Of a DNA stretch of 64,000 nt, positions 6,377 through 44,150 are shown in pieces. The stretch's first letter is position 1. Every line of letters begins with the position of its first letter. The stretch comes from Rhodobacterales bacterium RIFCSPHIGHO2_02_FULL_62_130. GTDB lineage: Bacteria; Pseudomonadota; Alphaproteobacteria; Rhodobacterales; Rhodobacteraceae. A program made the translations under genes and the position numbers. Location: assembly GCA_001828855.1 (NCBI GenBank), contig MHZT01000001.1, forward strand, positions 62,001-126,000, in the 5' to 3' direction. The notes under the pieces are model-generated. The model was not told where the DNA came from and did no database searches. It saw only the letters and a program-made list of their open reading frames with translations.

Positions 6377-6888
6377 TCCGACACCTGACCCCCGCCGATT
6401 ATACCACGATGCCTTGGGCGAATGGCAAAGGCGTGACGGTTGAGATGTTGCGGGTTGAGGAGGGCGGGCTGAAATGGCGGCTCTCTCGGGCTTCTGTGGT
6501 GGAGAACGGCGATTTCTCGGCCTTTCCGGGGATCGAGCGGAACCTGACCGTGATCAGCGGGCCGGGGTTTGATCTGGTGGCGCAGGGGCTGCATTTGCCC
6601 GCGTGTCCTTTGCAGCCAGTGGCCTTTGCGGGCGATGTGCCGATCCGGGCGGAAGGGGTGACTGCACCTTCGGATGATTTCAACGTGATGACTGCGCGGG
6701 GGCTGCCCTTGCCCGATGTCAGGGTGATCCACGGCGCAGAGGAATTGGCCACGGACGGCATGCTGGCGCTGTTTGCGCTGGATGCGGCGCGGGCCGCTGA
6801 TCTGGAACTTGGCCCCTATGATCTGGTGCTGACGGATCAGGCCGTTTCGGTTGCTGGCCCCATGATTGTGGTCAGGCTTTACGGGTAG
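6373..6888 (+). CDS. hutD: HutD/Ves family cupin protein
   Basis: A 171-residue protein of the HutD family, recognised by IRHLTPADYTTMPWANGKG near the start, WRLSRASVVENGDFSAFPGIERNLTVISG and the late FALDAA block. HutD proteins are double cupins associated with histidine use, where they may bind a pathway intermediate such as N-formylglutamate; some relatives (Ves) respond to cold. No hut genes lie nearby, so the link to histidine is not supported by context. It is translationally coupled to rmuC (ATGA at 6373). The TAG stop lies inside the first copy of the dispersed palindrome described at 6883-6910. Confidence 0.85.
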   Translation: MIRHLTPADYTTMPWANGKGVTVEMLRVEEGGLKWRLSRASVVENGDFSAFPGIERNLTVISGPGFDLVAQGLHLPACPLQPVAFAGDVPIRAEGVTAPSDDFNVMTARGLPLPDVRVIHGAEELATDGMLALFALDAARAADLELGPYDLVLTDQAVSVAGPMIVVRLYG

Positions 6889-6910
6889 GGTGCGTGCTGG
6901 CACGCACCTT
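6883..6910. repeat. Dispersed palindrome, copy 1
   Basis: Arms GGTGCGTGC (6889-6897) and GCACGCACC (6900-6908) form a perfect 9-bp stem with a 2-nt loop, flanked by GGGTA on the left and TT on the right. It lies between the convergent genes hutD and chrR, and the hutD stop codon TAG (6886-6888) is part of the flank. Six related copies occur in this window. A bidirectional terminator or REP-like role is inferred. Confidence 0.85.
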
Positions 6911-6919
6911 ACAGCTGCC

Positions 6920-7555
6920 TCAAATCCGGAAGATCGGCTGCAACAGGCGCGGGAGCATCGCGCGAAAGCGCAGGGGTGCGTCGGTCGCAGCAAGGCAGAT
7001 GCAATCCATGCCCGCCTCGGCCACGGGGGTATGCTCCAGGTCTTCGGTGGCTATTTCCACGTCACCCACGCCAAAGCGGTCGGACTCATCCCGGAACGCA
7101 CCTTGCAGCACCAGCGTCAATTCGGTGCCTCGGTGGCCGTGGTCCGGCACGGCCTGACCTGCCGGGATATACAAAAGCCGTGCCGATGCGCCGCGCGCAG
7201 TTGGCAGGATCGCCTGTCGCACACCCATGCCCAAGGGCCGCCAGTGAACCGCCGCCAGATCGCCGCCGACATAATCCGCCAATGGGGCGGGAAAAAAGCC
7301 GCGCTTGCGCGGGGCAGGGGCGGCATCTTGCGGACCCAACCGCGCCAGCACAGATTCAAGACTGCCATCGGCCATTGCCACCGTATCGGCACTGTCAACC
7401 ACGGCCCCGCCCACGGCCTCGAACGTCTCAAGCCGTGCGCGGCACTCGTCACAAAGCGAGATATGCGTGGCCACGACAAGGCCGAAGGCTTCGGACAGAT
7501 TGCCTGCCGCGTAAGCCATCAGCAAAGGGTTGGACAGGTGATGTCGGATGGTCAT
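6920..7555 (-). CDS. chrR: ChrR-type zinc anti-sigma factor
   Basis: A 211-residue anti-sigma factor that closely resembles R. sphaeroides ChrR. The N-terminal zinc-binding anti-sigma domain has His6, His31, Cys35 and Cys38 (HxxxCxxC), and the C-terminal cupin domain has His139, His141, Glu145 and His175, matching the known zinc ligands of both domains. ChrR holds RpoE inactive and releases it when singlet oxygen forms; the cupin domain is needed for that response. It lies directly downstream of rpoE with a gap of only nine bases, so the pair form an operon. It converges with hutD. Confidence 0.95.
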   Translation of the reverse strand: MTIRHHLSNPLLMAYAAGNLSEAFGLVVATHISLCDECRARLETFEAVGGAVVDSADTVAMADGSLESVLARLGPQDAAPAPRKRGFFPAPLADYVGGDLAAVHWRPLGMGVRQAILPTARGASARLLYIPAGQAVPDHGHRGTELTLVLQGAFRDESDRFGVGDVEIATEDLEHTPVAEAGMDCICLAATDAPLRFRAMLPRLLQPIFRI

Positions 7556-7564
7556 AGGTCAGCC

Positions 7565-8107
7565 TCAGGTCATTTTCTGGCGCAAACGGTCCAGCGCCAG
7601 ACGTATCCGCGATTTGATGGTGCCAAGCGGTAATCCCGTCTCGGCGGCGATTTCCGAATGGGAAAGATCGCCATAAAACGCCCGCTTTATCAGCGCGCGT
7701 TGCTTTTCCGGCAGATCCGCCAGCGCGGCAGACAGCCGCTTGGTTTCCTGATCGGCCTGATAGACATCGGCCTGATCCGGTTCCTCGTCCGGTCCCCAAA
7801 GCACGGCTTCCGGCTCGGGTCGGCGGGCTTTGCGGGCCATGTCGATACGGCGGTTGCGGGCGATGGTGAAAACCCAGGTGGCCACGCTGGCGCGGGCAGG
7901 GTCATAAAGATGCGATTTCTGCCACAGCGTCGCCATCACGTCCTGGGCGCATTCCTCGGCGGTGGCGGCGTCAGATCCGGCCTTCATCAGAAAGGCTTTC
8001 ACACGCGGGGCAAAGTGGCGGAAAAGCTGGGCGAATGCGTTGCGATCCTGCTTGTCCCGCACCGCCAGCATCAGGCTTGCCCAATCTGTTTCCGTTCCGC
8101 CCGACAC
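7565..8107 (-). CDS. rpoE: ECF sigma factor RpoE (singlet-oxygen response)
   Basis: A group IV (ECF) sigma factor. Region 2 has FRHFAPRVKAFLMKAG and VATWVFTIARNRRIDMARK; region 4 has LPEKQRALIKRAFYGDLSHSEIAAETGLPLGTIKSRI, the helix-turn-helix that reads the -35 element. An open frame reaches ATG 8275, but the predicted autoregulated promoter (8218-8246) lies inside that extension, so translation must begin further in. GTG 8107 gives about 180 residues, close to the R. sphaeroides protein, with AGAGG nine bases upstream; TTG 8110 and GTG 8125 are alternatives. It pairs with ChrR downstream and diverges from its likely target operon. Confidence 0.9.
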   Translation of the reverse strand: MSGGTETDWASLMLAVRDKQDRNAFAQLFRHFAPRVKAFLMKAGSDAATAEECAQDVMATLWQKSHLYDPARASVATWVFTIARNRRIDMARKARRPEPEAVLWGPDEEPDQADVYQADQETKRLSAALADLPEKQRALIKRAFYGDLSHSEIAAETGLPLGTIKSRIRLALDRLRQKMT

Positions 8108-8217
8108 CAAAGCCTGCCTCTTCACCCAGTCAAACGCGTTTGACCCTGTGATGACAGGGGCAACCGGCGCAGGGCCATAAATGGGGCGAAGTGGGGTGGC
8201 GTCAAGCAACATACCCA

Positions 8218-8246
8218 TTCTACGGCGGTCAATATCGGCTGGATCA
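8218..8246 (-). promoter_or_regulatory. Predicted RpoE-dependent promoter of rpoE-chrR
   Basis: On the minus strand TGATCC (8246-8241) is followed after 18 bases by TAGAA (8222-8218). The published R. sphaeroides RpoE consensus is TGATCC, 18 bases, TAAGA. The match and spacing suggest that the sigma factor drives its own operon, with a leader of roughly 100 bases if translation starts at 8107. Confidence 0.75.
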
Positions 8247-8289
8247 CCCTGCGGACAAAGATTTCCTGCCGTCACACCAAAGCAAAGAG

Positions 8290-8318
8290 TGATCCGATCG
8301 GCTTTGGGCTGCGTATGC
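8290..8318 (+). promoter_or_regulatory. Predicted RpoE-dependent promoter of the divergent oxidoreductase operon
   Basis: TGATCC (8290-8295) is followed after 18 bases by TATGC (8314-8318). The -35 element is a perfect match to the RpoE consensus and the -10 element is partial. Transcription would begin around 8325, about 20 bases before the ATG at 8346. It stands back-to-back with the rpoE promoter, 43 bases away. Confidence 0.65.
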
Positions 8319-8345
8319 TGTTAAAGTTACAGTCAGGAATGCTTG

Positions 8346-9638
8346 ATGCCCTTCGAAACTTTCGCAAGCCCCTCCCGCCGCATTGCTGTGATCGGAGGGG
8401 GCATAGCGGGTCTGTCCGCCGCGCATTTTCTGGCCGCCGACAATGCCGTGGTGCTGTTTGAATCCGAATCCCGTTTGGGTGGCCATGCCCGCACTGTAAT
8501 TGCAGGGCGGCGCGGGGATCAGCCGGTGGATACGGGCTTTATCGTCTATAACCGCGTCAATTATCCGCATCTGCTCAAGCTGTTCGAAAAGCTGGATGTG
8601 CCGGTGACCAAAAGCAACATGAGCTTTGGGGCATCCATCGGTGGCGGGCGTCTGGAATATGCGCTCGCCTCGCTGGATTCGATGTTTGCCCAGCGGCGCA
8701 ATCTGCTGTCTCCCGCCTTCCTGCGGATGTGCCGCGATATTCTGCACTTCAACAAACACGCTGCAGCCGTTGTGCGCCCCGACATGACCATCCGCGCGCT
8801 GCTGGCGCAGCTTGGGACAGGCCGGTATTTCCGCGATTATTACATCCTGCCTTTGTCCGGTGCGATCTGGTCGACGCCGTCTCATGGCATTCTCGACTTT
8901 CCGGCCAAGGCGCTGATCCGCTTTTTCCAGAACCATGCGCTGATGCAAGTCTCGGGGCAGCATCCGTGGTATACCGTCAAGGGCGGATCGGTCCAATATG
9001 TGCGGCGGCTTGAATCGGAACTGCAACGCCAAGGCGTGGAGTTGCGGCTTGCAACCCCGATTGCGGGCATCCGGCGCGAGGCCGACGGGGTGTTCGTCCG
9101 CGCGCGTGGCGGCGACTGGGAAGTGTTCGACGAGGTTGTGATGGCCACCCATTCCGATGACAGCCTTGCGCTTTTGTCCGATCCAAGCCCTGAAGAACGC
9201 GCCGCACTGGGTGCTGTACGCTATCAGCCAAATCAGGCCGTACTGCATGCCGATAGCAGCCTGATGCCGAAATCGCGCAAGTGCTGGGCATCCTGGGTCT
9301 ATGCCGAGCCGGACGGTGCGCGGCCTGACAAGATCGATCTGACCTATTGGATGAACTCGCTGCAACCCATCCCCAAGGATGACCCGATGTTCGTCACCTT
9401 GAACGCGAACCGCCCGATCCGCGAGAACATGATCTACGATCAGGTGACGTTCCGGCATCCGGTCTATGATCTGGCCGCCTTGGCTGCACAAGGGCAGGTA
9501 AAGGCAATGAATGGCACGCGGCATACATGGTTCTGCGGCGCGTGGATGCGGAACGGCTTCCACGAGGATGGCATCGCCAGCGCCGTCGATGTGGTCGAAG
9601 CCATGCGCCTCCGCAGCACGCTTCGGCAGGCGGCATGA
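8346..9638 (+). CDS. FAD-dependent oxidoreductase, probable furan-fatty-acid desaturase (UfaD-like)
   Basis: A 430-residue flavoprotein of the amine-oxidase superfamily. A Rossmann FAD-binding motif (VIGGGIAGLSAAHFLA, glycines 17-22) opens the protein and a C-terminal FCGAWMRNGFHEDGIASA segment closes the FAD site. Next to rpoE-chrR it matches the position of the R. sphaeroides RpoE-regulon gene that I recall as RSP_1091, linked to the desaturation step (UfaD) in furan fatty acid synthesis on membrane phospholipids. That assignment is from memory and synteny. The start at ATG 8346, not TTG 8343, has AGGA seven bases upstream. The next gene overlaps by four bases. Confidence 0.85.
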   Translation: MPFETFASPSRRIAVIGGGIAGLSAAHFLAADNAVVLFESESRLGGHARTVIAGRRGDQPVDTGFIVYNRVNYPHLLKLFEKLDVPVTKSNMSFGASIGGGRLEYALASLDSMFAQRRNLLSPAFLRMCRDILHFNKHAAAVVRPDMTIRALLAQLGTGRYFRDYYILPLSGAIWSTPSHGILDFPAKALIRFFQNHALMQVSGQHPWYTVKGGSVQYVRRLESELQRQGVELRLATPIAGIRREADGVFVRARGGDWEVFDEVVMATHSDDSLALLSDPSPEERAALGAVRYQPNQAVLHADSSLMPKSRKCWASWVYAEPDGARPDKIDLTYWMNSLQPIPKDDPMFVTLNANRPIRENMIYDQVTFRHPVYDLAALAAQGQVKAMNGTRHTWFCGAWMRNGFHEDGIASAVDVVEAMRLRSTLRQAA

Positions 9639-10384
9639 GCCGGGTTGATCATATCCGGGGGGAAACCTTTCATGGCCGCAAGGGGGCGGTGCAGAACAGC
9701 TTTCGCTATTCGGTGGATTATGTGCTGCTTAACCCTGAAACAGCGCGGGGTCCGGCGCTGTTCTCGCGCAATCGGGGCAACCTGACCTCGCTGCATGACA
9801 GCGATCACGGAGGTCCGCCCAAGCAGGGGCGTGGCATCGCTTGGGTGCGCGAGGTTCTGTCTGCCCATAACCTTCCCGGTGCCGAAAAGATCGAGCTTTT
9901 GGCCCAGCCCCGGTTTCTTGGCCATGTGTTCAACCCGGTGTCATTCTGGTTGTGTCAGGATTTCAAAGGCTTGCGCGTGGTGATTGCCGAGGTGTCGAAC
10001 ACCTTTGGCGACCGGCATTCCTATCTGTGCCACCGCGACGATCTGGCCCCGATCACCCGCGAAGATTTGCTGGTGGCGCAGAAGATCTTCCATGTCTCGC
10101 CGTTTCAGCCACTCGAGGGCGGCTACCAGTTCCGCTTTGACATCCGCGCGGACCGGATCGGCATCTGGATCGACTATACGGCGGGGCAGGGTGGGCTGGT
10201 GGCCACATTGACCGGCCCGCGCCGCCCTCTGACGAGTGCCGCGATCCTTTGGGCCGCCCTGCGCCGCCCCTTTGGCGCGCGGCGGGTGCTGGCCCTGATC
10301 CATTGGCAGGCGCTGAAATTGTGGTGGAAAGGCGCAGGCTATCGCCCCCACCCCAAGCCGCCTGCGGACGAGGTGACACGATGA
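9635..10384 (+). CDS. DUF1365 protein, probable UfaO-like
   Basis: A 249-residue DUF1365 protein, recognised by FHGRKGAVQNSFRYSVDYVLLN, HNLPGAEKIELLAQPRFLGHVFNPVSFW and HVSPFQPLEGGYQFRFD. The histidine-rich conserved blocks suggest a metal site, but no activity can be read from sequence. In R. sphaeroides the syntenic gene (RSP_1090, from memory) is required for oxygen insertion into furan fatty acids (UfaO) and for the ChrR response. The start at 9635 overlaps the upstream stop (ATGA), so the two products are made together; a longer frame from 9527 would overlap the oxidoreductase. Confidence 0.85.
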   Translation: MSRVDHIRGETFHGRKGAVQNSFRYSVDYVLLNPETARGPALFSRNRGNLTSLHDSDHGGPPKQGRGIAWVREVLSAHNLPGAEKIELLAQPRFLGHVFNPVSFWLCQDFKGLRVVIAEVSNTFGDRHSYLCHRDDLAPITREDLLVAQKIFHVSPFQPLEGGYQFRFDIRADRIGIWIDYTAGQGGLVATLTGPRRPLTSAAILWAALRRPFGARRVLALIHWQALKLWWKGAGYRPHPKPPADEVTR

Positions 10385-10418
10385 CCCCCTTCGCAAGAAG
10401 GGCTGCGGGGATGATGGC

Positions 10419-11153
10419 ATGAACTGGCAGGGCAAACGCTATTGGCTGGTTGGCGCAAGCGAAGGCTTGGGGCTGGCACTGGCGCAGCAAATGGCGGCGA
10501 AAGGGGCGCAAGTGATCCTGTCCGCCCGCGATCCGCTGCGGCTTGAACAGGCCGCTGCCCGGGTGCCGGGCGCGACTGCGGTGGTGGTCGATGTCGCCGA
10601 CAGGGTCTCGGTGGAACAGGCTGCGGCAGGGTTGGGCGCGCTTGACGGAATGGTGTTTCTGGCAGGGGTCTACTGGCCGATGCCCGCGCAAGCGCTGGAC
10701 CCTGACCGGCTTGAGTCGATGTGCGACATCAACTTCACCGGCTGCGCGCGGGTTCTGGGTGCGGTGCTGCCAGCCATGATCGTGCGCGGCACAGGGCATG
10801 TGGTCATCACAGGCTCGCTGTCCGGCTTCAGGGGGTTGCCGGGGGCGATGGGCTACGCGGCCTCCAAAGCCGGCGTGATGGCGCTTGCGGAAAGCCTTTA
10901 TGCCGATCTGCGCGGCACGGGGGTGCGGGTGCAACTCGCCAACCCCGGCTTCATTGCCACAAGGCTGACCGCCAAGAACGATTTCCAGATGCCGTTCCTG
11001 ATGCAACCCGAACAAGCCGCCGCCGCCATGATGTCCCATATGGAAAAAGGCGGGTTCAAGACCAGCTTTCCAATCGTATTTTCATGGCTGTTCCGCCTGT
11101 CCCAATTCTTGCCGGACTGGGCCTATTACCGGCTGTTCGCGCCAAGACCCTGA
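10419..11153 (+). CDS. Short-chain dehydrogenase/reductase
   Basis: A 244-residue classical SDR. The cofactor motif appears as GASEGLG near residue 9, the catalytic tetrad as a Ser in TGSLSG followed by YAASK (Tyr-x3-Lys). It follows the DUF1365 gene after 34 bases and is the third gene of the presumed RpoE-controlled operon; an SDR is also present in the R. sphaeroides operon. The substrate is unknown, possibly a lipid-derived carbonyl. A weakly hydrophobic C-terminus (FSWLFRLSQFLPDWAYYRLF) may touch the membrane. The stop lies three bases before palindrome copy 2. Confidence 0.85.
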   Translation: MNWQGKRYWLVGASEGLGLALAQQMAAKGAQVILSARDPLRLEQAAARVPGATAVVVDVADRVSVEQAAAGLGALDGMVFLAGVYWPMPAQALDPDRLESMCDINFTGCARVLGAVLPAMIVRGTGHVVITGSLSGFRGLPGAMGYAASKAGVMALAESLYADLRGTGVRVQLANPGFIATRLTAKNDFQMPFLMQPEQAAAAMMSHMEKGGFKTSFPIVFSWLFRLSQFLPDWAYYRLFAPRP

Positions 11154-11156
11154 CAC

Positions 11157-11184
11157 AAGGTGCGTGAAATCACGCACCCTACCC
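11157..11184. repeat. Dispersed palindrome, copy 2
   Basis: Arms GGTGCGTGA (11159-11167) and TCACGCACC (11170-11178), perfect 9-bp stem, 2-nt loop, followed by CTACCC. It begins three bases after the SDR stop and is inverted relative to copy 3, which lies at the 3' end of rsmB. Confidence 0.88.
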
Positions 11185-11211
11185 TTCATCCTGACAGGTT
11201 CCGTTCATCCC

Positions 11212-11283
11212 CTTTGTCCAAATATCCCCGCCGGAGGCAACGGCGTTTCAGGAGGGAATGACAGCATGAGTATTTGGGCCAAG
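11212..11283. repeat. Composite imperfect inverted repeat between palindrome copies 2 and 3
   Basis: CTTTGTCCAAATA (11212-11224) and TATTTGGGCCAAG (11271-11283) are complementary at 11 of 13 positions and enclose a GC-rich centre. Motifs like CAAATATCCCC and ATGAGTATTTGGGCCAAGATGAAG recur between genes in Rhodobacteraceae genomes as I remember them. The left arm reappears in part at 41471-41486. Function unknown; a structured 3'-end or mobile-repeat remnant is plausible. Confidence 0.6.
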
Positions 11284-11294
11284 ATGAAGCCCAA

Positions 11295-11323
11295 GGGTAG
11301 GGTGCGTGCTTGTCACGCACCTT
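11295..11323. repeat. Dispersed palindrome, copy 3
   Basis: Arms GGTGCGTG (11301-11308) and CACGCACC (11314-11321) with a 5-nt loop, preceded by GGGTA. The right arm encodes the last two residues and part of the stop of rsmB on the minus strand (GGT GCG TGA), so the gene ends inside the repeat. Confidence 0.85.
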
Positions 11324-12575
11324 TCTTCAGGCTGACCATGAAAAAGCCGTCTATCCCGCCTTTGTCCGCCCAGTAATCGGGGCGCAGGCGCAGGCCGCCT
11401 TCGGGGGTGATCCATGCGGGATCGATGCCGGGCAGGGCGGGCGGCAGCACGGACAGGTTCGGATGGCGTGCCAGTGCTGCGGTCAACTGTGCCTCGCCTT
11501 CGTCGGGCAGCAACGAGCAGGTGCAGAACACCAATCGTCCGCCCGGTTTCAGGAACCCCAAGGCGCGGTCAAGCAGGGCGGCTTGCAGCGCGGTCAGCTC
11601 TGCCAGTTCCGAGCCGTCTTTCAGGAAGGGCAGTTCCGGGTGACGCCGGATTGTTCCCGTGGCCGAGCAGGGTGCGTCCAGCAGGACAGCATCAAACAGC
11701 CCGTCGGGTGTCCAGTGCAGCGCGTCTGCCACCACCAGCCGTGCCGCAAGGCCGGTGCGCGCCAGATTTTCGGCCACCCGCGCCATGCGGGGTTCGGAAA
11801 TATCCAGCGCTGTGACATCGGCCCCCGCTGCGGCCAATTGCAACGTTTTGCCGCCCGGTGCGGCGCAAAGGTCCAGCACCTTTTCGGCCGGCACCACAGC
11901 CAGCATCCGTGCGGCCAAAGCGGCGGCGGCATCCTGCACCCACCAATCGCCACTGTCATAGCCGGGCAGGGCCGAAACCTGACCCGCATCGCGCAACCGG
12001 ATCGATCCTGTCGGCAAGACCTCTCCCTCGGGCAGCACCGTACCGCGCGGGGTGATGTCCAGCGGTGGGGCCACGGCCTGAACCGCCTCGATTGCAGTGA
12101 CAGCCTCGCGGCCATAGGCGTGAACCAGCGGTTGGCGCAGCCAGCGCGGCATGCGCTGTGGCGGACCAGAGAGCGGCGCGCCCGCCGGAATTTTCCGCAG
12201 CACCGCGTTGATCAGCCCGGCCATATGGGTGGTGCGCTTGCCTTGGCGGGCAAGTTCGACCGCCGCATTCACCACGCCATGCGCGGCAGCCCCGTCGTGC
12301 AATTCTGTTACGGCCAGCCGCAGGATGTTCATCACCGCCAAGGGCGGTTCTTTCCGCAGCAGGGGTTCCAGCAGCCTGTCAACCGGCTCCATCTGGCGGA
12401 TGACTTGCAGTGCCAACCTTTGCGCGCGGGCGCGGTCTTGTGGTGCGACGCCTTTCAATGGGCCATCGCGCAGCGCCAGCACTTGGGCAAAGGTCTGACC
12501 TTCCTCCATCACGCAGGCCATCAGCCCGAGTGCCGCACTTCGCGCGGCCAAACCCGCTGCCTTTGCTTCCGCCAT
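11313..12575 (-). CDS. rsmB: 16S rRNA m5C967 methyltransferase RsmB
   Basis: A 420-residue RsmB/Sun-family enzyme that methylates cytosine 967 of 16S rRNA. An N-terminal NusB-like RNA-binding domain (about residues 1-140) precedes a SAM-dependent methyltransferase domain with LDLCAAPGGKTLQLAAAG (SAM motif), LLDAPCSATGTIRRHPEL (Pro-Cys motif) and CTCSLL (catalytic Thr-Cys). It diverges from the small SDHAF4-like gene with only 67 bases between starts. Its final Gly-Ala-stop is encoded by palindrome copy 3. Confidence 0.95.
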   Translation of the reverse strand: MAEAKAAGLAARSAALGLMACVMEEGQTFAQVLALRDGPLKGVAPQDRARAQRLALQVIRQMEPVDRLLEPLLRKEPPLAVMNILRLAVTELHDGAAAHGVVNAAVELARQGKRTTHMAGLINAVLRKIPAGAPLSGPPQRMPRWLRQPLVHAYGREAVTAIEAVQAVAPPLDITPRGTVLPEGEVLPTGSIRLRDAGQVSALPGYDSGDWWVQDAAAALAARMLAVVPAEKVLDLCAAPGGKTLQLAAAGADVTALDISEPRMARVAENLARTGLAARLVVADALHWTPDGLFDAVLLDAPCSATGTIRRHPELPFLKDGSELAELTALQAALLDRALGFLKPGGRLVFCTCSLLPDEGEAQLTAALARHPNLSVLPPALPGIDPAWITPEGGLRLRPDYWADKGGIDGFFMVSLKKGA

Positions 12576-12642
12576 GTGCCAACCCTTGCCGCTGCCCCGT
12601 TTGGCCGTATATCAATGGCATCGCGACCGCAAGGAAACCGCT

Positions 12643-12834
12643 ATGTCAGATCTGCCCACCCCCGAGCGTCCCACCCCCGACCTGCCCCCCGCCGCGCTGC
12701 GCGCCTTGGCCGAGGCCGAGGAACGCCGCAAGATCGCCAGACCCGATCTGCCGCCGGAACTGGGCGGGCGCGACGGGCCTGAACCCGTGCGCTATGGCGA
12801 TTGGGAGAAAAAGGGGCTTGCTGTCGATTTCTAG
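12643..12834 (+). CDS. DUF1674 / SDHAF4-like protein
   Basis: A 63-residue protein with the DUF1674 hallmark at its C-terminus: GGRDGPEPVRYGDWEKKG followed by LAVDF. Eukaryotic members (SDHAF4/Sdh8) bind flavinated succinate dehydrogenase subunit A and help complete complex II assembly; bacterial members are assumed to act similarly. The N-terminal half is proline- and glutamate-rich and probably disordered. The ATG at 12643 follows AAGGAAACC; an upstream extension to 12574 has no family similarity. Confidence 0.85.
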   Translation: MSDLPTPERPTPDLPPAALRALAEAEERRKIARPDLPPELGGRDGPEPVRYGDWEKKGLAVDF

Positions 12835-12861
12835 CACAGCCGCGCCGGTCTGCAGGGCGCG

Positions 12862-34340: not shown

Positions 34341-34369
34341 GGGTAGGGTGCGTGATTTCACGCAGCTTT
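34341..34369. repeat. Dispersed palindrome, copy 4
   Basis: GGTGCGTGA (34347-34355) and TCACGCAGC (34358-34366) pair with one mismatch; the left flank is GGGTAG. It is inverted relative to copy 5, 39 bases downstream. Confidence 0.8.
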
Positions 34370-34392: not shown

Positions 34393-34418
34393 AAGGTGCG
34401 TGAGATCACGCATCCTAC
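34393..34418. repeat. Dispersed palindrome, copy 5
   Basis: GGTGCGTGA (34395-34403) and TCACGCATC (34406-34414) pair with one mismatch, followed by CTAC. It ends two or three bases before the ftsK stop codon complement at 34421, so it is the first structure in the ftsK 3' untranslated region. Confidence 0.8.
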
Positions 34419-34420
34419 AC

Positions 34421-37408
34421 TTAATGCTCGGGCAGCAGGATTTCGCGCTTGCCGACGTGGTTGGCGGTGGTGACGACGTGGTTCTCTTCCATCTGTTCCA
34501 CCAGACGCGCGGCCTTGTTATAGCCGATGCCCAGTTTGCGCTGGATATAAGAGGTCGAGCATTTGCGGTCCTTGGCGACGATCGCCACGGCCTGATCGTA
34601 AAGCGCATCATCCGACGCCTCGCCCGACCCCAGACCCAGCACCATGTCGATGTCAGATGCCGCGTCGTCTTCCGGCCCTTCCACCACGCCCGACATATAG
34701 CTGGGCGGGCCGAAGGATTTCAGGTGGTTGACGATCTCTTCAACCTCTTCATCCGACACGAAAGGCCCGTGGATACGGGTGATCTTGGCCCCGCCTGCCA
34801 TATAGAGCATGTCACCCATGCCCAAAAGCTGTTCGGCCCCCTGTTCGCCAAGGATAGTGCGGCTGTCGATCTTCGACGTCACCTGAAACGAAATCCGCGT
34901 CGGGAAGTTCGCCTTGATCGTGCCGGTGATCACGTCGACCGAGGGGCGCTGGGTGGCCATGATCAGGTGGATGCCAGAGGCCCGCGCCATCTGGGCAAGA
35001 CGCTGGATGCAGGCTTCGATTTCCTTGCCTGCAACCATCATCAGGTCGGCCATCTCGTCCACCACCACCACGATATAGGGGATGGTGACGGGCATGTATT
35101 CATCGGTCTCGAACACAGGTTCGCCCGAGTCTTCATCAAATCCGGTCTGGATGGTGCGCTTGAAGGTTTCGCCCTTGGCCAGTGCTTCGCGCACGCGGCC
35201 ATTGAAGCCTTCGATGTTCCGCACGCCCATCTTGGACATCTTGCGGTAACGCTCTTCCATCTCGCCCACGACCCATTTCAGGGCGACAACCGCCTTCTTC
35301 GGATCGGTCACAACGGGCGACAGCAGGTGCGGGATGCCGTCGTAAACCGACAGTTCCAGCATCTTGGGGTCGATCATGATCAGGCGGCATTCGTCGGGTG
35401 TCAGCTTATACAGCAGAGACAGGATCATCGTGTTGATCGCCACCGATTTGCCCGACCCAGTGGTGCCTGCAATCAGAAGGTGGGGCATCTTGGCAAGGTT
35501 TGCCACGATGGGATCGCCGCCAATATCCTTGCCCAAGGCCAGCGGCAGGCGCAGGTTTGAATCGCCAAAGTCGCGGGCGGCCAGAATTTCGCGCAGCACC
35601 ACCTTTTCGCGGGTGGCGTTGGGCAATTCGATCCCGATGACGGTGCGGCCCGGAACGGTGGACACGCGGGCCGACAGCGCCGACATGCTGCGGGCGATGT
35701 CATCGGCCAGACCGATCACGCGGGACGCCTTCAGGCCGGGCGCGGGTTCCAACTCATACATGGTGACGACGGGGCCGGGGCGGACCGAGACGATTTCGCC
35801 TTTGACGCCGTAGTCGTCCAGCACCGATTCCAGCATCCGTGCATTTTCCTCCAGCGATTCCACCGAAAGCTGGTTGCGCTGGATATGGATCGGGTTCGAC
35901 AGCAACGACAGCGGCGGCAGTTCATAGGCCGGTGCCGGATCGTCAAAGCGCAGGCGGGGTTGCGATTCCTGCTGGGCCTGACGCGAGGGGGCCGCGGGCT
36001 TTTTGACCGGCTGTTGCACCACGGCGCGGCGGGTTTCACCGGCCAGATGGATGCGCGGGGCAGGGGCGGGGGTCGGGTCGTAATCCGGCATATAATCGTC
36101 GGCCAGATCGTCTTCGGGCTGCCAGTCGGTCGTGCTGTCCAGATCATCCGCCGCAGCAAAGGCCGTGTGGAGCGGCGCAGGATCGTGGGCGGGTGTGGTG
36201 ATCACGCGCTTGGAGGCGAAAGCGGGGGCTACGGCGGCAGTCACAGCCGCGACAGAGGCAACTGCGGCGGGGGCCACCACGGGCGGCTCGATCCGCAGGC
36301 CTGCGGCGGGTTGCGGACGGGTGTCGGCAATCAGCGGAACGGGGCCGCGCGGGCGGGCCACCACGGGCGGTTCGCGGCGCAGGATGGCGGCGGTGATCGG
36401 AGAGACGTTTTCGGCGGGCGCATGGGTGCGGGTGCGGATCGCCTCGGAGATGCGGGATTTGATGCGGTCATCGCTGGGCATTTCCGACAGGTCGGCGGCC
36501 TCGGACAGCATCGGTTCCACCAGTTCGGGTTCAGGCTCGACAGCGCGGCGCATCAGGGCAGGCATGCGGGCCAGCAGGCTCATTTTCTCGCGCGGGGCGG
36601 CGTAGTGGGGGGCCTCGGCCAGCGGCTCGCCATAGCGCGGATCGGCGCGCAGCGAGGAGGGGCGGCCCCAGTCATTTGCATCGGCGCTGCGCTGCGTGGG
36701 GATCTGGGATTCGGCGGCGGTGCGGCGGCGGTCTTGAATGGCCTGAGTTGCGCCTTGCGCGCCTTTGCCGGCGGTGTTCAGCAGGGTGGAATAGGTCAGG
36801 ATCAGGCTGGTGGTCAGAAAGCGGAAAGTGCTGCGGATTTCGTGCAGGTCAAAGCCGGTGACGAACAGCATCATGGCAACAAGGCTGAAACCAGAGGCAA
36901 CCGAGATCAGTTTCAGGCCGATGCCTGCGCCGGTGGGGATCAGGCCCAAGAGCGCGCCCAGAACGGTATCGCCGAACAACCCGCCAAGACCGAAGGATTG
37001 CGCCCAGGTGGCAGGTGGCACCAAGGTTGCGGCATAGACAGAGCTGAGGGCGATGGCCAGAACCGCAAACACCATCCGCCCCAGCGCACGCTCGGCCCCG
37101 CGGTGCAGCACAAAGCGCAGGCCCCATGCCGACAGCACCACCGGAATCCCCCACGCCCCTTTGCCACCGATTATGATCAGTGTTGACGCCAGTGCCGCGC
37201 CAAAGCGGCCAAGGGTGTTGGCGGCAGGCTCGTCCGTGGCGACCATCCAGCCCGGATCATCGGGGGAATAGCTGCCCAGCATCAGTGCGAAAGCAACGCC
37301 CGCAAGGATCAGCGCGATGCCGAACAGCTCGCGCCCGCGTTTTTCCAGCATTGCCTGAGTGCCTTGATCCAAGAGGGGATCGCGTTGGCGTGCCTGATAG
37401 GATGCCAT
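34421..37408 (-). CDS. ftsK: DNA translocase FtsK
   Basis: A 995-residue FtsK that links division to chromosome dimer resolution. The N-terminal 200 residues hold about four membrane spans; a proline- and arginine-rich linker (about 200-500) follows; the motor domain has [20 protein letters not shown] (Walker A) and [15 protein letters not shown] (Walker B); the C-terminal gamma winged helix ([40 protein letters not shown]) reads KOPS sites. The gene lies 11 bases after the aminotransferase gene in the same direction. Confidence 0.97.
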
Positions 37409-37419
37409 TTGCCCTGTCC

Positions 37420-38598: not shown

Positions 38599-38746
38599 GT
38601 CTGCCTCATATCGGGGTCGTCTCGCCCCGTTTGATCCGACGATAACCACAAGCGGCGGGCGGGTCCAGAAAAACCCATGTGCCGCGCAGGGGAGGGTCCG
38701 CAAATTGTGTCTTTTTAGCCCCGCCGATCAAGCCCTTGGGGGTGTT

Positions 38747-40078
38747 TCAAGCCAAAGCGCGCTCGGCTGCGGTGCCAAGGCGCAAAAGGCGCTCTTCCTG
38801 CCCCGGCCCCGCCATGATCGAGATGCCACAAGACGGCTGCGCGGTGGGGAGGGTCAGCACGCAACCGCCCATCAGATTGCCGATACGGGTATTCCGCAGC
38901 GCCAGCAGGTTTTCGGTGACGTAATAGGCGTTGTCGGTCATCAGCCGATGCGCGTCGGGCGGCAGAATCGGCGAGGTGGGCAGCAAAACCGCGTCAAAAC
39001 CTGCGGTCAGATCGGCCCAGTTTGCGCGGATGGTTTCCAGCCTGCGCCAGCCCGCGACGTAATCGGCGGCGGCGATGGTGGCCCCCGAGCGGAAGCGTTC
39101 AAGGATGCGCGGGAACATCTTTTCGGGCGCGGCTTCGATGGTGGTGGCCCAGATGCCATAGGCCTCGGCGGTGAAGAGGATGCCTGCAAGCTGCATCGCC
39201 TCGATGATTTCGGGGGCGGCGATGCGGCTGATCTGTGCGCCCGCGCGGCCAAGGCGGGTCAGGGCGTCGTCAAAGCCCTTGGCGGGGCGGTCGCGCAGAT
39301 CATCAAGGGCAACGGTTTCCAGCACGGCAAGGCGGCTGCCGGACAGGCTGGCCCCTGTCAGATCGGCGGGCTTGCGGCCCTCCAGTGCGGCCAGAAGCAG
39401 GCCGCAATCTTCAACGCTGCGGGCCAGCGGGCCGATGGTATCAAAGCGTTCGCACAGTGGCACAACGCCGGTCAAAGGCAGGCGGCCCGAGGTGGTTTTC
39501 AGGCCGACAAGATCGTTCCACGCCGCAGGGATACGCACCGATCCGCCGGTGTCTGATCCGATGGCGGCAGGGGCAAGGCCAAAGGCCACCGATGTGGCCG
39601 CACCAGAGGATGAGCCGCCCGCAACCGCCTTGGGATCGTTGACGCAAGGCGAAGTGGCGGTGACGGGGTTCAGGCCAAGGCCGGAAAACGCCAGTTCCGA
39701 CATATGGGTTTTGCCAAGGCAAACAAGGCCTTCGCGGGTGGCGGTTTTCAGCACGGCGGCATCTTGGGTGGGCGTGCGGTTGCGGAGCAGGGCCGATCCG
39801 GCCTCGGTCGCCGTGCCTGCGGAATCGAACAGGTCTTTCCAGCTGACCGGCACGCCATCCAGCAAACCATGACGTTGGCCTGATTTTGCGCGGGCGGCAG
39901 CGGCCATCGCCTCGCCCCGCGCGCGGGCAGGGGTGACGCGGGCATAGATGCGGGTTGACACCTCATGCACGGCGATTTTCTCAAGGAACACTTCGGTCAG
40001 CTCGACCGGATTGATCCGCCCCGCGCCGATTTCGCGGCCCAGATCGGCGGCTGTCATGTTGGACCATGTTTTCGACAT
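38747..40078 (-). CDS. Amidase (amidase signature family)
   Basis: A 443-residue amidase. The Ser-cisSer-Lys triad is visible in VSWKDLFDSAGT (Lys), GGSSSGAATSVAFGLAPAAIGSDTGGSVRIPAAW (cis-Ser and nucleophile Ser), the defining amidase signature. It hydrolyses an amide; family members include GatA-like, indoleacetamide and aryl amide hydrolases. No gatB/gatC neighbours are present, so a GatA role is unlikely. ATG 40078 gives the standard start. It diverges from the UbiH-like gene across 76 bases. Confidence 0.9.
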   Translation of the reverse strand: MSKTWSNMTAADLGREIGAGRINPVELTEVFLEKIAVHEVSTRIYARVTPARARGEAMAAAARAKSGQRHGLLDGVPVSWKDLFDSAGTATEAGSALLRNRTPTQDAAVLKTATREGLVCLGKTHMSELAFSGLGLNPVTATSPCVNDPKAVAGGSSSGAATSVAFGLAPAAIGSDTGGSVRIPAAWNDLVGLKTTSGRLPLTGVVPLCERFDTIGPLARSVEDCGLLLAALEGRKPADLTGASLSGSRLAVLETVALDDLRDRPAKGFDDALTRLGRAGAQISRIAAPEIIEAMQLAGILFTAEAYGIWATTIEAAPEKMFPRILERFRSGATIAAADYVAGWRRLETIRANWADLTAGFDAVLLPTSPILPPDAHRLMTDNAYYVTENLLALRNTRIGNLMGGCVLTLPTAQPSCGISIMAGPGQEERLLRLGTAAERALA

Positions 40079-40154
40079 TGCAGGCTCCTGTTTGGCACAG
40101 GCTAGCGGCAAGGCGGCGCATGGACAATCCTGCGCGGTGGGCCATATTGGGGGA

Positions 40155-41384
40155 ATGGAACGGGACGCAGATATTCTGATCGTGGGTGGCGGGCTGAACG
40201 GCCCCGCCTTGGGGCTGGCACTGGCGCAGGGGGGGCTGCGCGTGACGGTGATCGACGCGCGACCGGCGCCTTCGCGGGCAGAGGCGGGATTTGACGGGCG
40301 GGCCTATGCGCTGGCAATTGCGTCAAAGCGGCTGCTGTCGGTGATCGGGGTCTGGGCGCGGCTGGCGGACAAGGTGCAGCCAATCCTGAAGATCAAGGCC
40401 AGCGACGGGCTGGCGGGGCAGGGGCCTGCGCCGTTCTTCCTGACCTTTGATCATGCCGAGTTGGAAGAAGGCCCGATGGGCTTTATGGCCGAGGATCGGT
40501 TCCTGTATGCGGCGTTTCTGGATGCGATGCAGGACTGCGCGGGCCTGACGCTGTTGTCGGGCGAAAGCGTGGTGGATCAGTCGGTTACCGGTGCAGGGGT
40601 GGCGGTGACGCTGGCTTCGGGTCGGGTGCTGAAGGCCTCGGTTCTGGTTGGCTGCGACGGGCGCGGATCAGGGACGGCCGCGCGGGCGGGGATCAAGCGC
40701 AGCGGCTGGGGCTATGGCCAGACCGCGCTTGTCACCGCGATCCGGCACGAGCATGACCACCAAGGCATCGCGCATCAGTTCTTCATGCCCGCAGGTCCGC
40801 TGGCGATCCTGCCGCTGCCGGGCGGGCATCACTCCTCCATCGTGTGGAGCGAGACCGACGCCACCGCGCAGGCGATCCAAGCGCTGCCGGATGACCAATA
40901 TCTGCAGGCGCTGCGGCCCCGCTTTGGCGATTTTCTGGGCGAGATCGCGCTTGCGGGGGATCGGTTCACCTATCCGCTGTCGCTGAGCCTCGCCAACAGC
41001 TTTACCGCGCCGCGCGTGGCTTTGGTCGGCGATGCCGCGCATGGGGTGCATCCGATTGCAGGGCAGGGGTTGAACCTTGGCTTCCGCGATGTCGGCGCGT
41101 TGGCGCAGGTGTTGGTCGAGGCGCATCGGCGCGGCGAGGATATTGGCGCGCCGGATGTGCTGGAGCGCTACCAACGCTGGCGCAGGTTCGACAGCACCGC
41201 GCTGGCCCTGGGGATGGACAGCGTCAACCGGCTGTTTTCCAACGACAACCCGATCCTGCGCGCGGGGCGCGATATTGGGCTTGGCCTTGTCAACGCCATC
41301 CCAGCGCTGCGCCGTGGCTTCATGCGGCAAGCAGCGGGGTTGAAGGCGGATGTTCCGAAGTTGTTGGCGGGAAAGGCGATCTGA
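40155..41384 (+). CDS. UbiH/UbiF/VisC/COQ6 family FAD hydroxylase
   Basis: A 409-residue FAD-dependent aromatic hydroxylase. ILIVGGGLNGPALGLALAQGGLRVTVID binds ADP of FAD, and VALVGDAAHGVHPIAGQGLNLGFRDV is the GD motif and ubiquinone-hydroxylase signature. It probably hydroxylates the ubiquinone ring (UbiH-, UbiF- or UbiL-type position not distinguishable). ATG 40155 is preceded by GGGGGA; the open frame to 39948 runs antisense to the amidase gene. Two tandem repeats and a terminator follow the stop. Confidence 0.92.
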   Translation: MERDADILIVGGGLNGPALGLALAQGGLRVTVIDARPAPSRAEAGFDGRAYALAIASKRLLSVIGVWARLADKVQPILKIKASDGLAGQGPAPFFLTFDHAELEEGPMGFMAEDRFLYAAFLDAMQDCAGLTLLSGESVVDQSVTGAGVAVTLASGRVLKASVLVGCDGRGSGTAARAGIKRSGWGYGQTALVTAIRHEHDHQGIAHQFFMPAGPLAILPLPGGHHSSIVWSETDATAQAIQALPDDQYLQALRPRFGDFLGEIALAGDRFTYPLSLSLANSFTAPRVALVGDAAHGVHPIAGQGLNLGFRDVGALAQVLVEAHRRGEDIGAPDVLERYQRWRRFDSTALALGMDSVNRLFSNDNPILRAGRDIGLGLVNAIPALRRGFMRQAAGLKADVPKLLAGKAI

Positions 41385-41393
41385 CAGGGCCGA

Positions 41394-41416
41394 GTCGGGG
41401 TGAACCCTGACCTACG
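41394..41416. repeat. Tandem 23-bp repeat, copy A
   Basis: A GTCGGGGTGAACCCTGAC core followed by CTACG. The related copy B at 41437-41459 differs at one base. It begins nine bases after the UbiH-like stop codon. Confidence 0.75.
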
Positions 41417-41436
41417 CTTGCGGCACGGCTAACCAT

Positions 41437-41459
41437 GTCGGGGTGAACCCCGACCTACG
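41437..41459. repeat. Tandem 23-bp repeat, copy B
   Basis: Contains the perfect interrupted palindrome TCGGGGTGAACCCCGA followed by CCTACG. Copies A and B are in direct orientation, 43 bases apart. Confidence 0.78.
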
Positions 41460-41515
41460 TTCCCCATCCTCTTTGCACAAATATCCTGCGGGGGGAAAGG
41501 CTGCGGCGCAGCCTT

Positions 41516-41538
41516 GGGGGGCGCAAAGCCCCCCTTTT
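41516..41538 (+). terminator. Terminator after the UbiH-like gene
   Basis: GGGGGGC (41516-41522), loop GCAAA, GCCCCCC (41528-41534), TTTT. It points along the plus strand and lies just before the convergent Trm112 gene. Confidence 0.8.
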
Positions 41539-41542
41539 GCTG

Positions 41543-41725
41543 TCAGTCGATCTGGCGCGCCTCTGACACCAGCATGATCGGAATCCCGTCGCGGATCGGG
41601 AAGGCCAGATGCGCGGCCTTGGAAATCAACTCGGCTTTTTCGGCGTCATAGGTCAGGATGGCTTGGGTGACGGGACAAACCAGCGCTTCCAGCATGCGGC
41701 GGTCGAAGGGGGGTGTTTCAGTCAT
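41543..41725 (-). CDS. Trm112 family protein
   Basis: A 60-residue Trm112/YcaR-type protein: [44 protein letters not shown] is the full family pattern. Eukaryotic and archaeal Trm112 activates methyltransferases acting on tRNA, rRNA and release factors; bacterial members are presumed to be similar partners. Its start overlaps the LON-domain gene stop by four bases, placing it last in the ybbN-LON-trm112 operon. Confidence 0.9.
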
Positions 41726-42369
41726 TGCATCGCCTCGTCCATGGAATCGCCACCGCGCAGGGCGAATTCGATCAGCGTTACCAAGGTTTCGCGGCGGGTG
41801 ACAAGAGAGGGCGCCTCAAGCAGGGCCTGTTTGTCTTCGGGCGCGATGGGCAGCAGCATCGACAGCGAGTTGATCAGCAATTCGGGATCGGCCTCGGACA
41901 GGCTGGACCAATCGGTTTCCATTCCGCGCGCGGCAAAGAAGCGGGCCAGCACGGCGAGAAAGGCGGGGCGGTCAAAGGCGGGGTCGGTTTCCTCATCGCC
42001 CAGATCGCGGGTGAAGGGAGACCAATCAACGGTGCAGCGACGGTAGGGGGTGAAACCCTGCACCTCATCGCGCAGCCGGAAGCGGGAGATGCCGGTCAGG
42101 GTGACCATATAGCGACCATCCTCGGTTTCCGAAAACGCCGTCAGCCTGCCCGCGCAGCCGATGGCTGACAGGCGCTTTTCGCCCGATCCCGGCACCTCGC
42201 GGGGTTGGATCATGCCGATCAGGCGGGTCTGGGTTTTCATGCAGTCTTCCAGCATGGCGCGATAGCGCGGCTCGAAGATATGCAGCGGCAGGCGGGCGCG
42301 CGGCAGCAGCAGCGCGCCCGAAAGCGGGAAAACCGGAATGGTGTCGGGCAAGTCTGTCAGTTTCATCAT
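41722..42369 (-). CDS. LON substrate-binding-domain protein
   Basis: A 215-residue protein that consists of the N-terminal (LAN/PUA-like) domain of Lon protease alone: [35 protein letters not shown] is diagnostic. It has no ATPase or protease domain. Such stand-alone proteins are common but of unknown role, perhaps substrate recognition. It lies 26 bases after the YbbN-like gene; starts at 42369 or 42366 are equivalent. Confidence 0.92.
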
Positions 42370-42395
42370 GCCCTGTAGTTAGGACGCCAAAGGCA

Positions 42396-43328
42396 TCAGG
42401 CAAATATCATCGACGACAGGCGGCGGCGGCCTTTCAGCACGATGGGGTCTTGCGGTTTCAGCGCATCAAAGATGATGAACAGTTGCGCGCGGGCCGCCCC
42501 GTCGTTCCATTCGCGGTCAAGTTTGAACAGGTCAAGCAGGGTATCGACGGCCTCATCCACCTTGCCTGCCGCGTGCAGGGCAAGTGCGAGATCAAAGCGG
42601 GCTTGGCGGTTGGCGGGGTCTTTTTCCACGGCGGCGCGCAGATCGTCTTCGGGACCGGCTTTGGCGGCTTGGCGGGCCAGTTCGATCTGGGCGCGGGCGG
42701 CGTCCAGTTCCTTGGATTTGGCCACGGGCGCGGGGGCGGCATCGACCAGCGCCTGTGCTGCGTCGATATCACCCAAGGCAAGCTGGGTGCGGATCAGGCC
42801 GGTGTAGGCGGCGATGTTCTCGGGTTCTTCTTCCAGAATGGCGGCGAAGGTTTCCTTGGCGTCGTCGAAGGCACCTTCGTCCAGCATCGCTTCGGCGGCG
42901 ATGATGGCATCGGCAAGGCCATTGTCAGGCTCGCCCGCAAGGCCCGCCATATGATCGACAAAGCGTTTGATTTCCGAAGGGGCAACCGCGCCTTGAAAGC
43001 CATCCACCGGCTGGCCTTGCCAGAAGGCATAGACGGTGGGGATGGACTGAATCCGCAGTTGTGCCGCAAGCGCCTGATTCTGGTCGACGTTGATCTTGAC
43101 CATGCGCACGCGGCCTTTGGCGGCGATCACGGCGGCCTCAAGCGCGGGGCCAAGGGTTTTGCACGGGCCGCACCACGGCGCCCAGAAATCGACGATCACC
43201 GGAACCGTTGCGGACGGTTCGATCACGTCTTTCATGAAGTTCGCCTCGGTGCCGTCGATGATCAGATCAGCGGCGGGGGCTGCGACAGCGGCGGTCGGGG
43301 TCGGGGTGCCGAACATTCTCGTCCTCAT
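42396..43328 (-). CDS. Thioredoxin-like co-chaperone (YbbN/CnoX family)
   Basis: A 310-residue protein with an N-terminal thioredoxin fold (VIVDFWAPWCGPCKTLGPALE, redox-active CGPC) and a C-terminal helical TPR-like region (about residues 135-300), the architecture of YbbN/CnoX. CnoX proteins hold oxidised clients and hand them to GroEL or DnaK. Here the CxxC is intact, so thiol exchange is also possible. Start at ATG 43328 (or 43316). It heads a minus-strand operon and diverges from the SGNH esterase gene. Confidence 0.92.
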   Translation of the reverse strand: MRTRMFGTPTPTAAVAAPAADLIIDGTEANFMKDVIEPSATVPVIVDFWAPWCGPCKTLGPALEAAVIAAKGRVRMVKINVDQNQALAAQLRIQSIPTVYAFWQGQPVDGFQGAVAPSEIKRFVDHMAGLAGEPDNGLADAIIAAEAMLDEGAFDDAKETFAAILEEEPENIAAYTGLIRTQLALGDIDAAQALVDAAPAPVAKSKELDAARAQIELARQAAKAGPEDDLRAAVEKDPANRQARFDLALALHAAGKVDEAVDTLLDLFKLDREWNDGAARAQLFIIFDALKPQDPIVLKGRRRLSSMIFA

Positions 43329-43446
43329 AAGCCAAGGGATTTGCCCTTATATGCGCGCGGGGCGGGCGGAATTGAAGGGGGGTCTTGGGGGTTTACAGCC
43401 GGTGCGCTGCGGCCCTAGCCTTGGGGCGCATTCAGGGAGGTGCCGC

Positions 43447-44079
43447 ATGACCGTTCTTCTGACCTATGGCGACAGCAATACCCACGGCACGCCGCCCATT
43501 CTGGAGCTGGGCGAATACCGCCGCTTTGATGCCGCGACGCGCTGGCCCGCGCTGGTGGGGCAGGCCTTGGGATGGGAGGTGGTCGAGGAAGGCTTGCCGG
43601 GGCGGACAGCGCAGTTCGATGATCCGGTGATGGGGCCGCATATGAACGGGCAGGACGGGCTGAAGATCGCGCTGCAAAGTCACGGGCCGATTGATGCGCT
43701 GACGATCATGCTGGGGACGAATGACGTGAAGGCGCGGTTCGGGGCCTCACCCGAACTGGTGACGGGCGGTGTGGCGCGGTTGCTGGACATTGCGTTTTCC
43801 GAGGAATTGCAGGCGCGGCATGGCGGGTTTCAGGTGCTGCTGATCTGCCCGCCGCCGGTGGTCGAGGTGGGGCCGATCAAGACGCAGTTCTATGGCGGGC
43901 GGGCGCGGTCCTTGGCGCTGCCGCCGCTTTATGCGGGGCTGGCGGCGGCTTATGGCGCGGCGTTTCTGGATGCGGGGCAGCATATCGAGGTCAGCATGAT
44001 TGACGGTGTGCATTTCGAGCCAGAAGCGCATGGGGTGTTGGCGGCAGCGGTGGCGGATAAGCTGCGGTCGATGATGTAA
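43447..44079 (+). CDS. SGNH/GDSL-family esterase
   Basis: A 210-residue SGNH hydrolase. The four blocks are clear: LLTYGDSNTHGTPP (block I Ser), LPGRTAQFDDP with the oxyanion Gly, IMLGTNDVKARF (block III Asn) and MIDGVHFEPEAH (block V Asp and His). No signal peptide is present. Closest in pattern are the small aryl esterases and acyltransferases of the Mycobacterium smegmatis Act type. GGAGGTGCCGC precedes the ATG. The stop is followed after one base by palindrome copy 6. Confidence 0.9.
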   Translation: MTVLLTYGDSNTHGTPPILELGEYRRFDAATRWPALVGQALGWEVVEEGLPGRTAQFDDPVMGPHMNGQDGLKIALQSHGPIDALTIMLGTNDVKARFGASPELVTGGVARLLDIAFSEELQARHGGFQVLLICPPPVVEVGPIKTQFYGGRARSLALPPLYAGLAAAYGAAFLDAGQHIEVSMIDGVHFEPEAHGVLAAAVADKLRSMM

Positions 44080-44080
44080 G

Positions 44081-44109
44081 GGGGTGGGGTGCGTGATCTC
44101 ACGCACCTT
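44081..44109. repeat. Dispersed palindrome, copy 6
   Basis: GGTGCGTGA (44088-44096), loop TC, TCACGCACC (44099-44107): perfect 9-bp stem, left flank GGGGTGG. It follows the esterase stop directly. Confidence 0.88.
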
Positions 44110-44122
44110 GCTTGCGGGCGGA

Positions 44123-44150
44123 AAGGTGCGTGAGATCACGCACCCTACCC
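44123..44150. repeat. Dispersed palindrome, copy 7
   Basis: GGTGCGTGA (44125-44133), loop GA, TCACGCACC (44136-44144), right flank CTACCC. It is inverted relative to copy 6 and ends one base before the stop complement of the convergent glycosyltransferase gene. Confidence 0.88.

Follow-up and report, generated by a model that had tools for sequence, protein, structure and literature searches.

Tagged palindromes at gene ends in the window

The window analyzed here is the stretch C1:62001-126000 (64,000 nucleotides) of genome G000, Rhodobacterales bacterium RIFCSPHIGHO2_02_FULL_62_130, a member of the Rhodobacteraceae whose assembly counts 4.97 Mb in 53 contigs. Seven copies of a short palindrome, here called element A, are found at the ends of its genes. 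In element A the tetranucleotide GTAG abuts a stem of 8-9 bp, GGTGCGTG...CACGCACC, which is closed by a short loop (Table 1). We describe these palindromes as a very probable family of repetitive extragenic palindromes (REPs), together with a gene on the same contig for a REP-associated tyrosine transposase (RAYT).

A fixed pattern, GGTGCGTGA-NN-TCACGCACC with up to 3 mismatches, fits six of the seven copies, where 100 shuffles give 0.04 on average. It misses the copy at 11301 because the loop of that copy is longer, and a loop-tolerant search recovers all seven while giving 0 in the reversed window. The seven copies listed in a first-pass annotation of this DNA are therefore all real, and so is the non-random occurrence that it claimed. 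The flanks that it reported, GGGTA and CTACCC, are also present and contain the tag on one side of the stem, this being GTAG in six copies and GTGG at 44082. On our own gene calls, the distances from the tagged elements to the nearest gene end are, in order, -6, 5, -9, 54, 0, 2 and 1 nt. The statement that six copies stand within about three bases of a stop codon is thus close to the mark (six are within 5 nt), but strictly only five are within 3 nt, overlaps counted. Inverted pairs are present at three sites as announced, and they are of two kinds, with GTAG either inside (tail-to-tail, TT; 11159/11295) or outside (head-to-head, HH; 34341/34395 and 44082/44125). Folded as DNA, the single hairpins of the seven copies have z scores of -4.1 to -6.0. 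At gathering scores, nothing in the window matches Rfam.

Table 1. Positions of element A and of the B element in the window (window numbering) and beside the RAYT gene (contig numbering, C1).
Feature	Position	Strand	Relation to genes and other features
REP element A, single	6883..6908	+	GTAG supplies the TAG stop of the + gene 6373-6888; convergent gene end at 6920
REP element A, left half of GTAG-inside (TT) dimer	11159..11184	-	5 nt past the stop of gene 10419-11153
B element GCCTCCGGCGGGGATATTT, within TT dimer	11220..11238	-	Decayed inverted partner at ~11266-11287
REP element A, right half of TT dimer	11295..11321	+	Includes the stop codon of the - gene 11313-12521
REP element A, one stem mismatch, left half of GTAG-outside (HH) dimer	34341..34366	+	
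REP element A, one stem mismatch, right half of HH dimer	34395..34420	-	Abuts the stop of the - gene 34421-37351
REP element A, tag GTGG, left half of HH dimer	44082..44107	+	2 nt past the stop of gene 43447-44079
REP element A, right half of HH dimer	44125..44150	-	1 nt from the stop of the - gene 44152-44940
A element left of the RAYT gene, one stem mismatch	C1:152030-152054	-	
A element downstream of the RAYT gene	C1:152703-152726	+	Its TAG is the RAYT stop codon

Abundance and gene context in the genome

The directional consensus, drawn by eye, reads GGGTAG, GGTGCGTG, loop, CACGCACC, often with CTT or CTTT next. It is based on 71 pattern matches from the window and 36 loci, a few of which are the wrong strand of another match, or chance. 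A genome-wide search for the core with up to two mismatches, which the first-pass annotation had proposed, yields 59 palindromes. The directional 14-mer GGGTAGGGTGCGTG with up to one mismatch is found 82 + 74 = 156 times, and the exact form GTAGGGTGCGTG-N2-6-CACGCACC 70 + 56 = 126 times, a figure in which a palindrome tagged on both sides would be counted twice. The reversed-pattern control gives 0 in all three cases. Element A is present in 25 of 149 genomes of the family, among which this genome is the richest in exact tagged copies, the next one (G100) having 52. It holds 44 exact palindromes versus 0-15 per congener, and 10 of the 14 congeners have some. In 96 distinct copies, which are not independent, there are 20 stem mismatches: 11 G-T on the GTAG strand, 2 A-C and 7 others. 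This excess of G-T agrees with a possible selection on the GTAG strand, among copies that share ancestry.

Gene context was examined in an 804-kb sample (two contig stretches, one of 400 kb and one of 340 kb, together with the window), in which a home-made codon-usage caller gives 726 genes. None of the 44 A elements sampled is centred in a gene, even though coding DNA makes up about 89% of the sample, and the reversed sample contains 0 A elements. Six of the 44 extend into the end of a gene, by 1-9 nt. Mapping of the distances to gene ends, also suggested in the first-pass annotation, places 29 of the 44 no more than 15 nt from the 3' end of a gene, compared with 9.5% for random intergenic placement; the enrichment at 3' ends is strong, and the equal scatter within coding regions that the first-pass annotation named as refutation is not seen in the sample. 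The gaps occupied are convergent in 25 cases, tandem in 15 and divergent in 4, and convergent gaps account for 12.06 of the 83.3 kb of intergenic DNA (binomial p 8e-11).

A RAYT gene between two A elements

A RAYT gene somewhere in the genome had been named in advance as support for a REP origin, and there is one, with an A element on each side (Table 1). The gene lies open at C1:152227-152703, 26 kb past the end of the window on the same contig, and has 159 codons from its ATG. Its product reaches 157 bits with NCBIfam NF047646 (cut-off 80) and 5e-37 against E. coli TnpArep (PDB 4er8), which is also the top fold match of its predicted structure (mean predicted local distance difference test score 74, tail unreliable). 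The Pfam family Y1_Tnp (PF01797) has no match in this genome. From that blank, A was read for a time as a REP family lacking a RAYT, a reading rejected on the NF047646 match. A search limited to PF01797 would give the same false verdict here. In three congeners, proteins with borderline Y1_Tnp matches are RAYTs according to NF047646 (133-150 bits), and comparison of one of them with the PDB finds E. coli TnpArep.

The palindromes are very probably a GTAG-tagged REP family, spread as singles and dimers by the cognate RAYT of the same contig. A REP-like element was one of the two proposals of the first-pass annotation, and it is supported by the RAYT with A on each side, by the absence of A from the interior of genes and by the enrichment at 3' ends. 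This reading starts from features seen directly in our analysis (the family, its tag, its dimers, its place behind genes, its variability at two loci and the RAYT-REP unit in several genera) and extends them by a mechanism. An ancestral RAYT still bearing its catalytic tyrosine, a single-strand DNA enzyme of the HUH/Y1 type, would have spread A through the genome. By analogy with known RAYT biology, this enzyme would recognize the folded GTAG strand, cut beside GTAG, and move or copy the element. Insertions would then persist mainly behind genes, because they do the least harm there, and would sometimes supply a new stop codon. Movement by the RAYT of this genome has probably stopped, because its catalytic tyrosine is now a phenylalanine.

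Dimers and the inner repeat B

Among the 44 A elements sampled there are 15 neighbouring pairs with variable spacers: 12 are TT, three are HH, and none is in tandem (head-to-tail, HT). The distance from A to A is 95-112 nt in 11 of the 12 TT dimers and 153 nt in the remaining one, and it is 11-28 nt in all three HH dimers. The TT dimers usually enclose a second inverted repeat, B, made of GCCTCCGGCGGGAGTATTT and its complement with about 20 variable nucleotides between them. The TT dimer of the window occupies 11159-11321, and as RNA the stretch 11154-11325 folds at -77.8 kcal/mol (z -6.3).

The composite A-B-loop-B-A (~165 bp) might instead be one unit, comparable to a miniature inverted-repeat transposable element (MITE) and mobilized by another transposase, with the RAYT as a bystander. 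The nearly constant A-to-A distance of the TT dimers fits such a unit, as do the relatives of the window composite found elsewhere in the genome at about full length and 73-85% identity. It is nevertheless improbable, since the two repeats occur apart: 12 of the 44 A elements have no B within 120 nt, and 29 of 64 B copies have no A. B is also found in exact form in 69 of the 149 family genomes versus 25 for A, and the central 20 nt of the composite are variable.

The 64 copies of B in the 804-kb sample include none centred in coding DNA, and 34 are in convergent gaps. With their ~20 variable nucleotides, inverted B pairs resemble a bidirectional terminator.

The same sites in congeners

At the gene pair 11153/11313, A is absent in six of the seven congeners compared (G001, G002, G004, G005, G007 and G009) and present in G003. 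At the gene pair 6888/6920 it is absent in eight of nine (G001, G002, G004, G005, G006, G007, G009 and G014) and again present in G003. The genes overlap or nearly touch there in two congeners for the first pair and in three for the second. Such variable presence at both sites would be expected of a repeat that moves or decays, but not of a terminator fixed at these genes. In G004 (L227), the gap orthologous to window 11154-11312 holds a different inverted repeat, of GCCCCGGACTTGATCCGGGGC type.

The second proposal of the first-pass annotation, a shared bidirectional terminator, receives no support from the few tests that bear on it (one region scanned, two loci compared). In its fullest form this explanation would make A a terminator or an mRNA 3'-end hairpin, selected at convergent genes and multiplied for that role. 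It would account for the strong 3'-end and convergent bias, and it can draw on the great RNA stability of the TT composite in the window and on the inner B inverted repeat, which has a GC stem, an A-rich lead and a T-rich tail. We consider it unlikely. No terminator-like site appears in the sole region scanned (window 11000-11500), most of the congeners compared do without A at the same gene pairs, and the GTAG tag, the linkage to RAYTs and the existence of both dimer orientations are left unexplained. Moreover, the bias of the G-T mismatches is towards the GTAG strand, but both genes around a convergent TT composite transcribe the opposite one. In the consensus listing, the tails after the A stem have at most 4 T in a row.

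RAYT-REP pairs across the family

Of the 149 family genomes, 59 have a match to NF047646 and 46 have one over the cut-off. Element A adjoins a RAYT also in G032, G061, G100, G117 and G146, each from a different genus. Among 117 named loci, all picked for carrying the palindrome, seven have a RAYT match and six of these have A within 400 nt: Marivita hallyeonensis, a metagenome-assembled genome (MAG) labelled Pseudorhodobacter antarcticus, Rhodosalinus halophilus, Marivita sp. XM-24bin2, the Rhodobacteraceae MAG D96SM.bin.44 and Cribrihabitans marinus. This list overlaps the genome set, Rhodosalinus being G100 and D96SM.bin.44 being G146. The RAYT locus of Cognatishimia activa has no A within 400 nt.

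The association can be followed in 50 RAYT genes, taken from 47 places in the NF047646 match list and from the three congeners, which are not all of those over the cut-off (G157 and G184, for example, are not among them); a broken gene on contig C40 of the present genome is also left out. A GTAG palindrome with a perfect stem of at least 7 bp lies within 250 nt outside the gene in 32 of them and on both sides in 10, and 19 of the genes end on the TAG of GTAG. Such palindromes number 72 in the 25.0 kb of RAYT flanks (250 nt) versus 4 in the 96.5 kb situated more than 500 nt away, which makes the flanks about 70 times denser. Their stems vary from RAYT to RAYT. A RAYT over the cut-off is found in 15 of the 25 A-bearing genomes versus 31 of the 124 others (p 0.0015, counts read by hand), and in 8 of the 10 genomes with at least five A matches versus 38 of 139 (p 0.0014). 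PF01797 itself has matches in 15 of the 149 genomes; at the six loci L205-L210 the matching frames resemble IS200 transposases, and these loci show no GTAG palindrome with a stem of at least 7 bp.

Adjacency to RAYTs also bears on the idea that A only resembles a REP and is in fact a DNA site bound by a protein, for example a nucleoid protein, gyrase or a regulator. The near-perfect twofold symmetry and conserved stem would suit such a site, and gyrase targets E. coli REPs according to the accessible part of PMC3733652. As the explanation of A, a binding site is very unlikely: it would need no directional GTAG tag, and it would not be expected next to RAYTs in several genera. It could still be a secondary use of the element.

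A GTAG palindrome is also found within the RAYT reading frame in 19 of the 50 genes, at about the same place each time (residue 87-90 of the RAYT of this genome). It forms an inverted pair in nine of the 19, with starts ~45-85 nt apart, and its stem is that of a flanking REP in 12. Examples include L262, L263, L267, L269, L271, L277, L285 and L290, among others. The A-type RAYT of this genome has no in-frame GTAG palindrome. We know of no report of RAYTs that carry their own REP in frame, a point on which the literature was not searched.

State of the enzyme

When the RAYT of this genome is aligned to 4er8, its HUH motif is complete (PDHLHAIW), F127 falls at Y115 and D131 falls at N119 (numbering counted along the alignment). 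In the accessible parts of the papers concerned, Y115F is the catalytic mutant used for E. coli TnpAREP (PMC8266576), and N119 is given a metal-binding role (PMC6006769). By sequence and fold the protein is a family member, with an incomplete set of catalytic residues.

The codon in the column of the catalytic tyrosine is TTT (Phe) in this genome, AGT (Ser) in G004 and G005, and TGC (Cys) in G006; in the RAYT tree, the genes of these three congeners are the sister group of the present one. These codons are compatible with one loss of the tyrosine or with two. A reading in which it was lost at least twice was therefore dropped. The RAYT of the P. antarcticus MAG (L035), which is flanked by A, keeps the tyrosine and has an aspartate at the position of the asparagine. 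Between G004 and G005, nonsynonymous (dN) and synonymous (dS) divergence of the RAYT gene are 0.24 and 0.94 (dN/dS ~0.26). The neighbouring dehydrogenase gene has dN 0.04 and dS 0.75, so that constraint on the RAYT is weaker. To judge from these rates, the RAYT genes that lack the tyrosine are not decaying freely.

A tentative reading, which we hold with more doubt than conviction, is that in the window's genus the A-type RAYT lost its nucleophile while its HUH motif and frame stayed under purifying selection. It may thereby have turned from a transposase into a REP-binding protein that no longer cuts, and the more than 100 REPs at gene ends would be its binding sites. A genome rich in REPs whose RAYT is deprived of its nucleophile makes it testable what domesticated RAYTs do besides moving REPs.

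In the 45 RAYTs that retain both histidines of HUH, this column holds a tyrosine 34 times and another residue 11 times (F, S, C, L, Q, A, H or W). The RAYTs without it sit in several branches of the tree, and some are still flanked by REPs.

Observations against spread by the cognate RAYT

Several observations weigh against the spread of A by its cognate RAYT. By the known mechanism, the RAYT of this genome should no longer act, because F127 and D131 replace the tyrosine and the asparagine. Two genomes with many A matches, G072 (12) and G171 (9), are without a RAYT over the cut-off. Among the 15 genomes that have both, a RAYT is directly beside A in only six, and the RAYTs of the others are accompanied by different REP types or by none. 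In G146, the RAYT flanked by A also holds another REP type inside the gene, and the RAYT loci of G004, G005 and G006 contain no A element within ~1.5 kb on each side. The A-linked RAYTs do not form one clade in the RAYT tree, whose backbone is without resolution. At the 6888 site, finally, G005 has another GTAG palindrome, with the perfect 6-bp stem GGTGGG, and G001 has an imperfect one, so that this site may hold a diverged REP rather than being empty.

A single clade of A-type RAYTs was considered and is not supported. The label changes on the tree number 4, and 9 of 500 shuffles are equally low, which amounts to weak clustering; the labels for A also counted palindromes inside RAYT genes.

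Relation to known REP systems

The accessible text on GTAG REPs (Di Nocera et al., 2013; PMC3733652) describes elements that, like A, have GTAG at one end, stems mostly of 6-9 bp and short loops. They likewise form HH and TT dimers, with HT rare, lie between convergent and unidirectional genes, and often provide a TAG stop codon through GTAG. A has those features of GTAG REPs in that work which can be tested on its sequence. In the same text GTAG REPs belong mainly to gammaproteobacteria and CGTC REPs to alphaproteobacteria, whereas A is an alphaproteobacterial GTAG family. The part of this text available makes no mention of Rhodobacter, Roseobacter, Paracoccus, Ruegeria or Dinoroseobacter, the comparison being one of text and not of stem sequence.

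The REPINs of Pseudomonas fluorescens SBW25, as the available text presents them (Bertels and Rainey, 2011; PMC3116915), likewise consist of two inverted REPs and a spacer, may form a long hairpin and have a specific RAYT. The longer A dimer, a putative unit of this kind, differs in that it encloses B, which is widespread also without A. With the RAYT/TnpAREP proteins described in the accessible portions of Nunvar (2010; PMC2817692) and PMC8266576, and with structure 4er8, the present RAYT shares its family, its fold, the HUH motif, a REP on each side and a REP at the stop codon. It differs in that, although the frame remains open, other residues stand in place of the catalytic tyrosine and asparagine, both here and in three congeners. 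No relevant paper was found by title on REPs or RAYTs in Rhodobacter, Rhodobacteraceae or Rhodobacterales, in a search that left most subscription journals outside. Our results thus add a REP-RAYT system for the Rhodobacteraceae that we did not find described in the literature searched.

Additional palindromes

Outside the Rhodobacteraceae, Foetidibacter luteolus (L045, L055, L061 and L075) has many GGTGCGTG-CACGCACC palindromes in a different setting; at L045, eight of them, without GTAG, are in the first 1.4 kb. In the window's own genome there is a second GTAG REP family, GTAGGTCGGGGTTCACCCCGAC, which the first-pass annotation does not list. A second RAYT gene of this genome, broken in two (L257, G000:C40:190500-194100), has palindromes of the second family beside and between its pieces. 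In the window this family occurs at 41394-41415 (-) and 41437-41458 (-), and in the 804-kb sample it has 18 copies, of which 14 lie between convergent genes.

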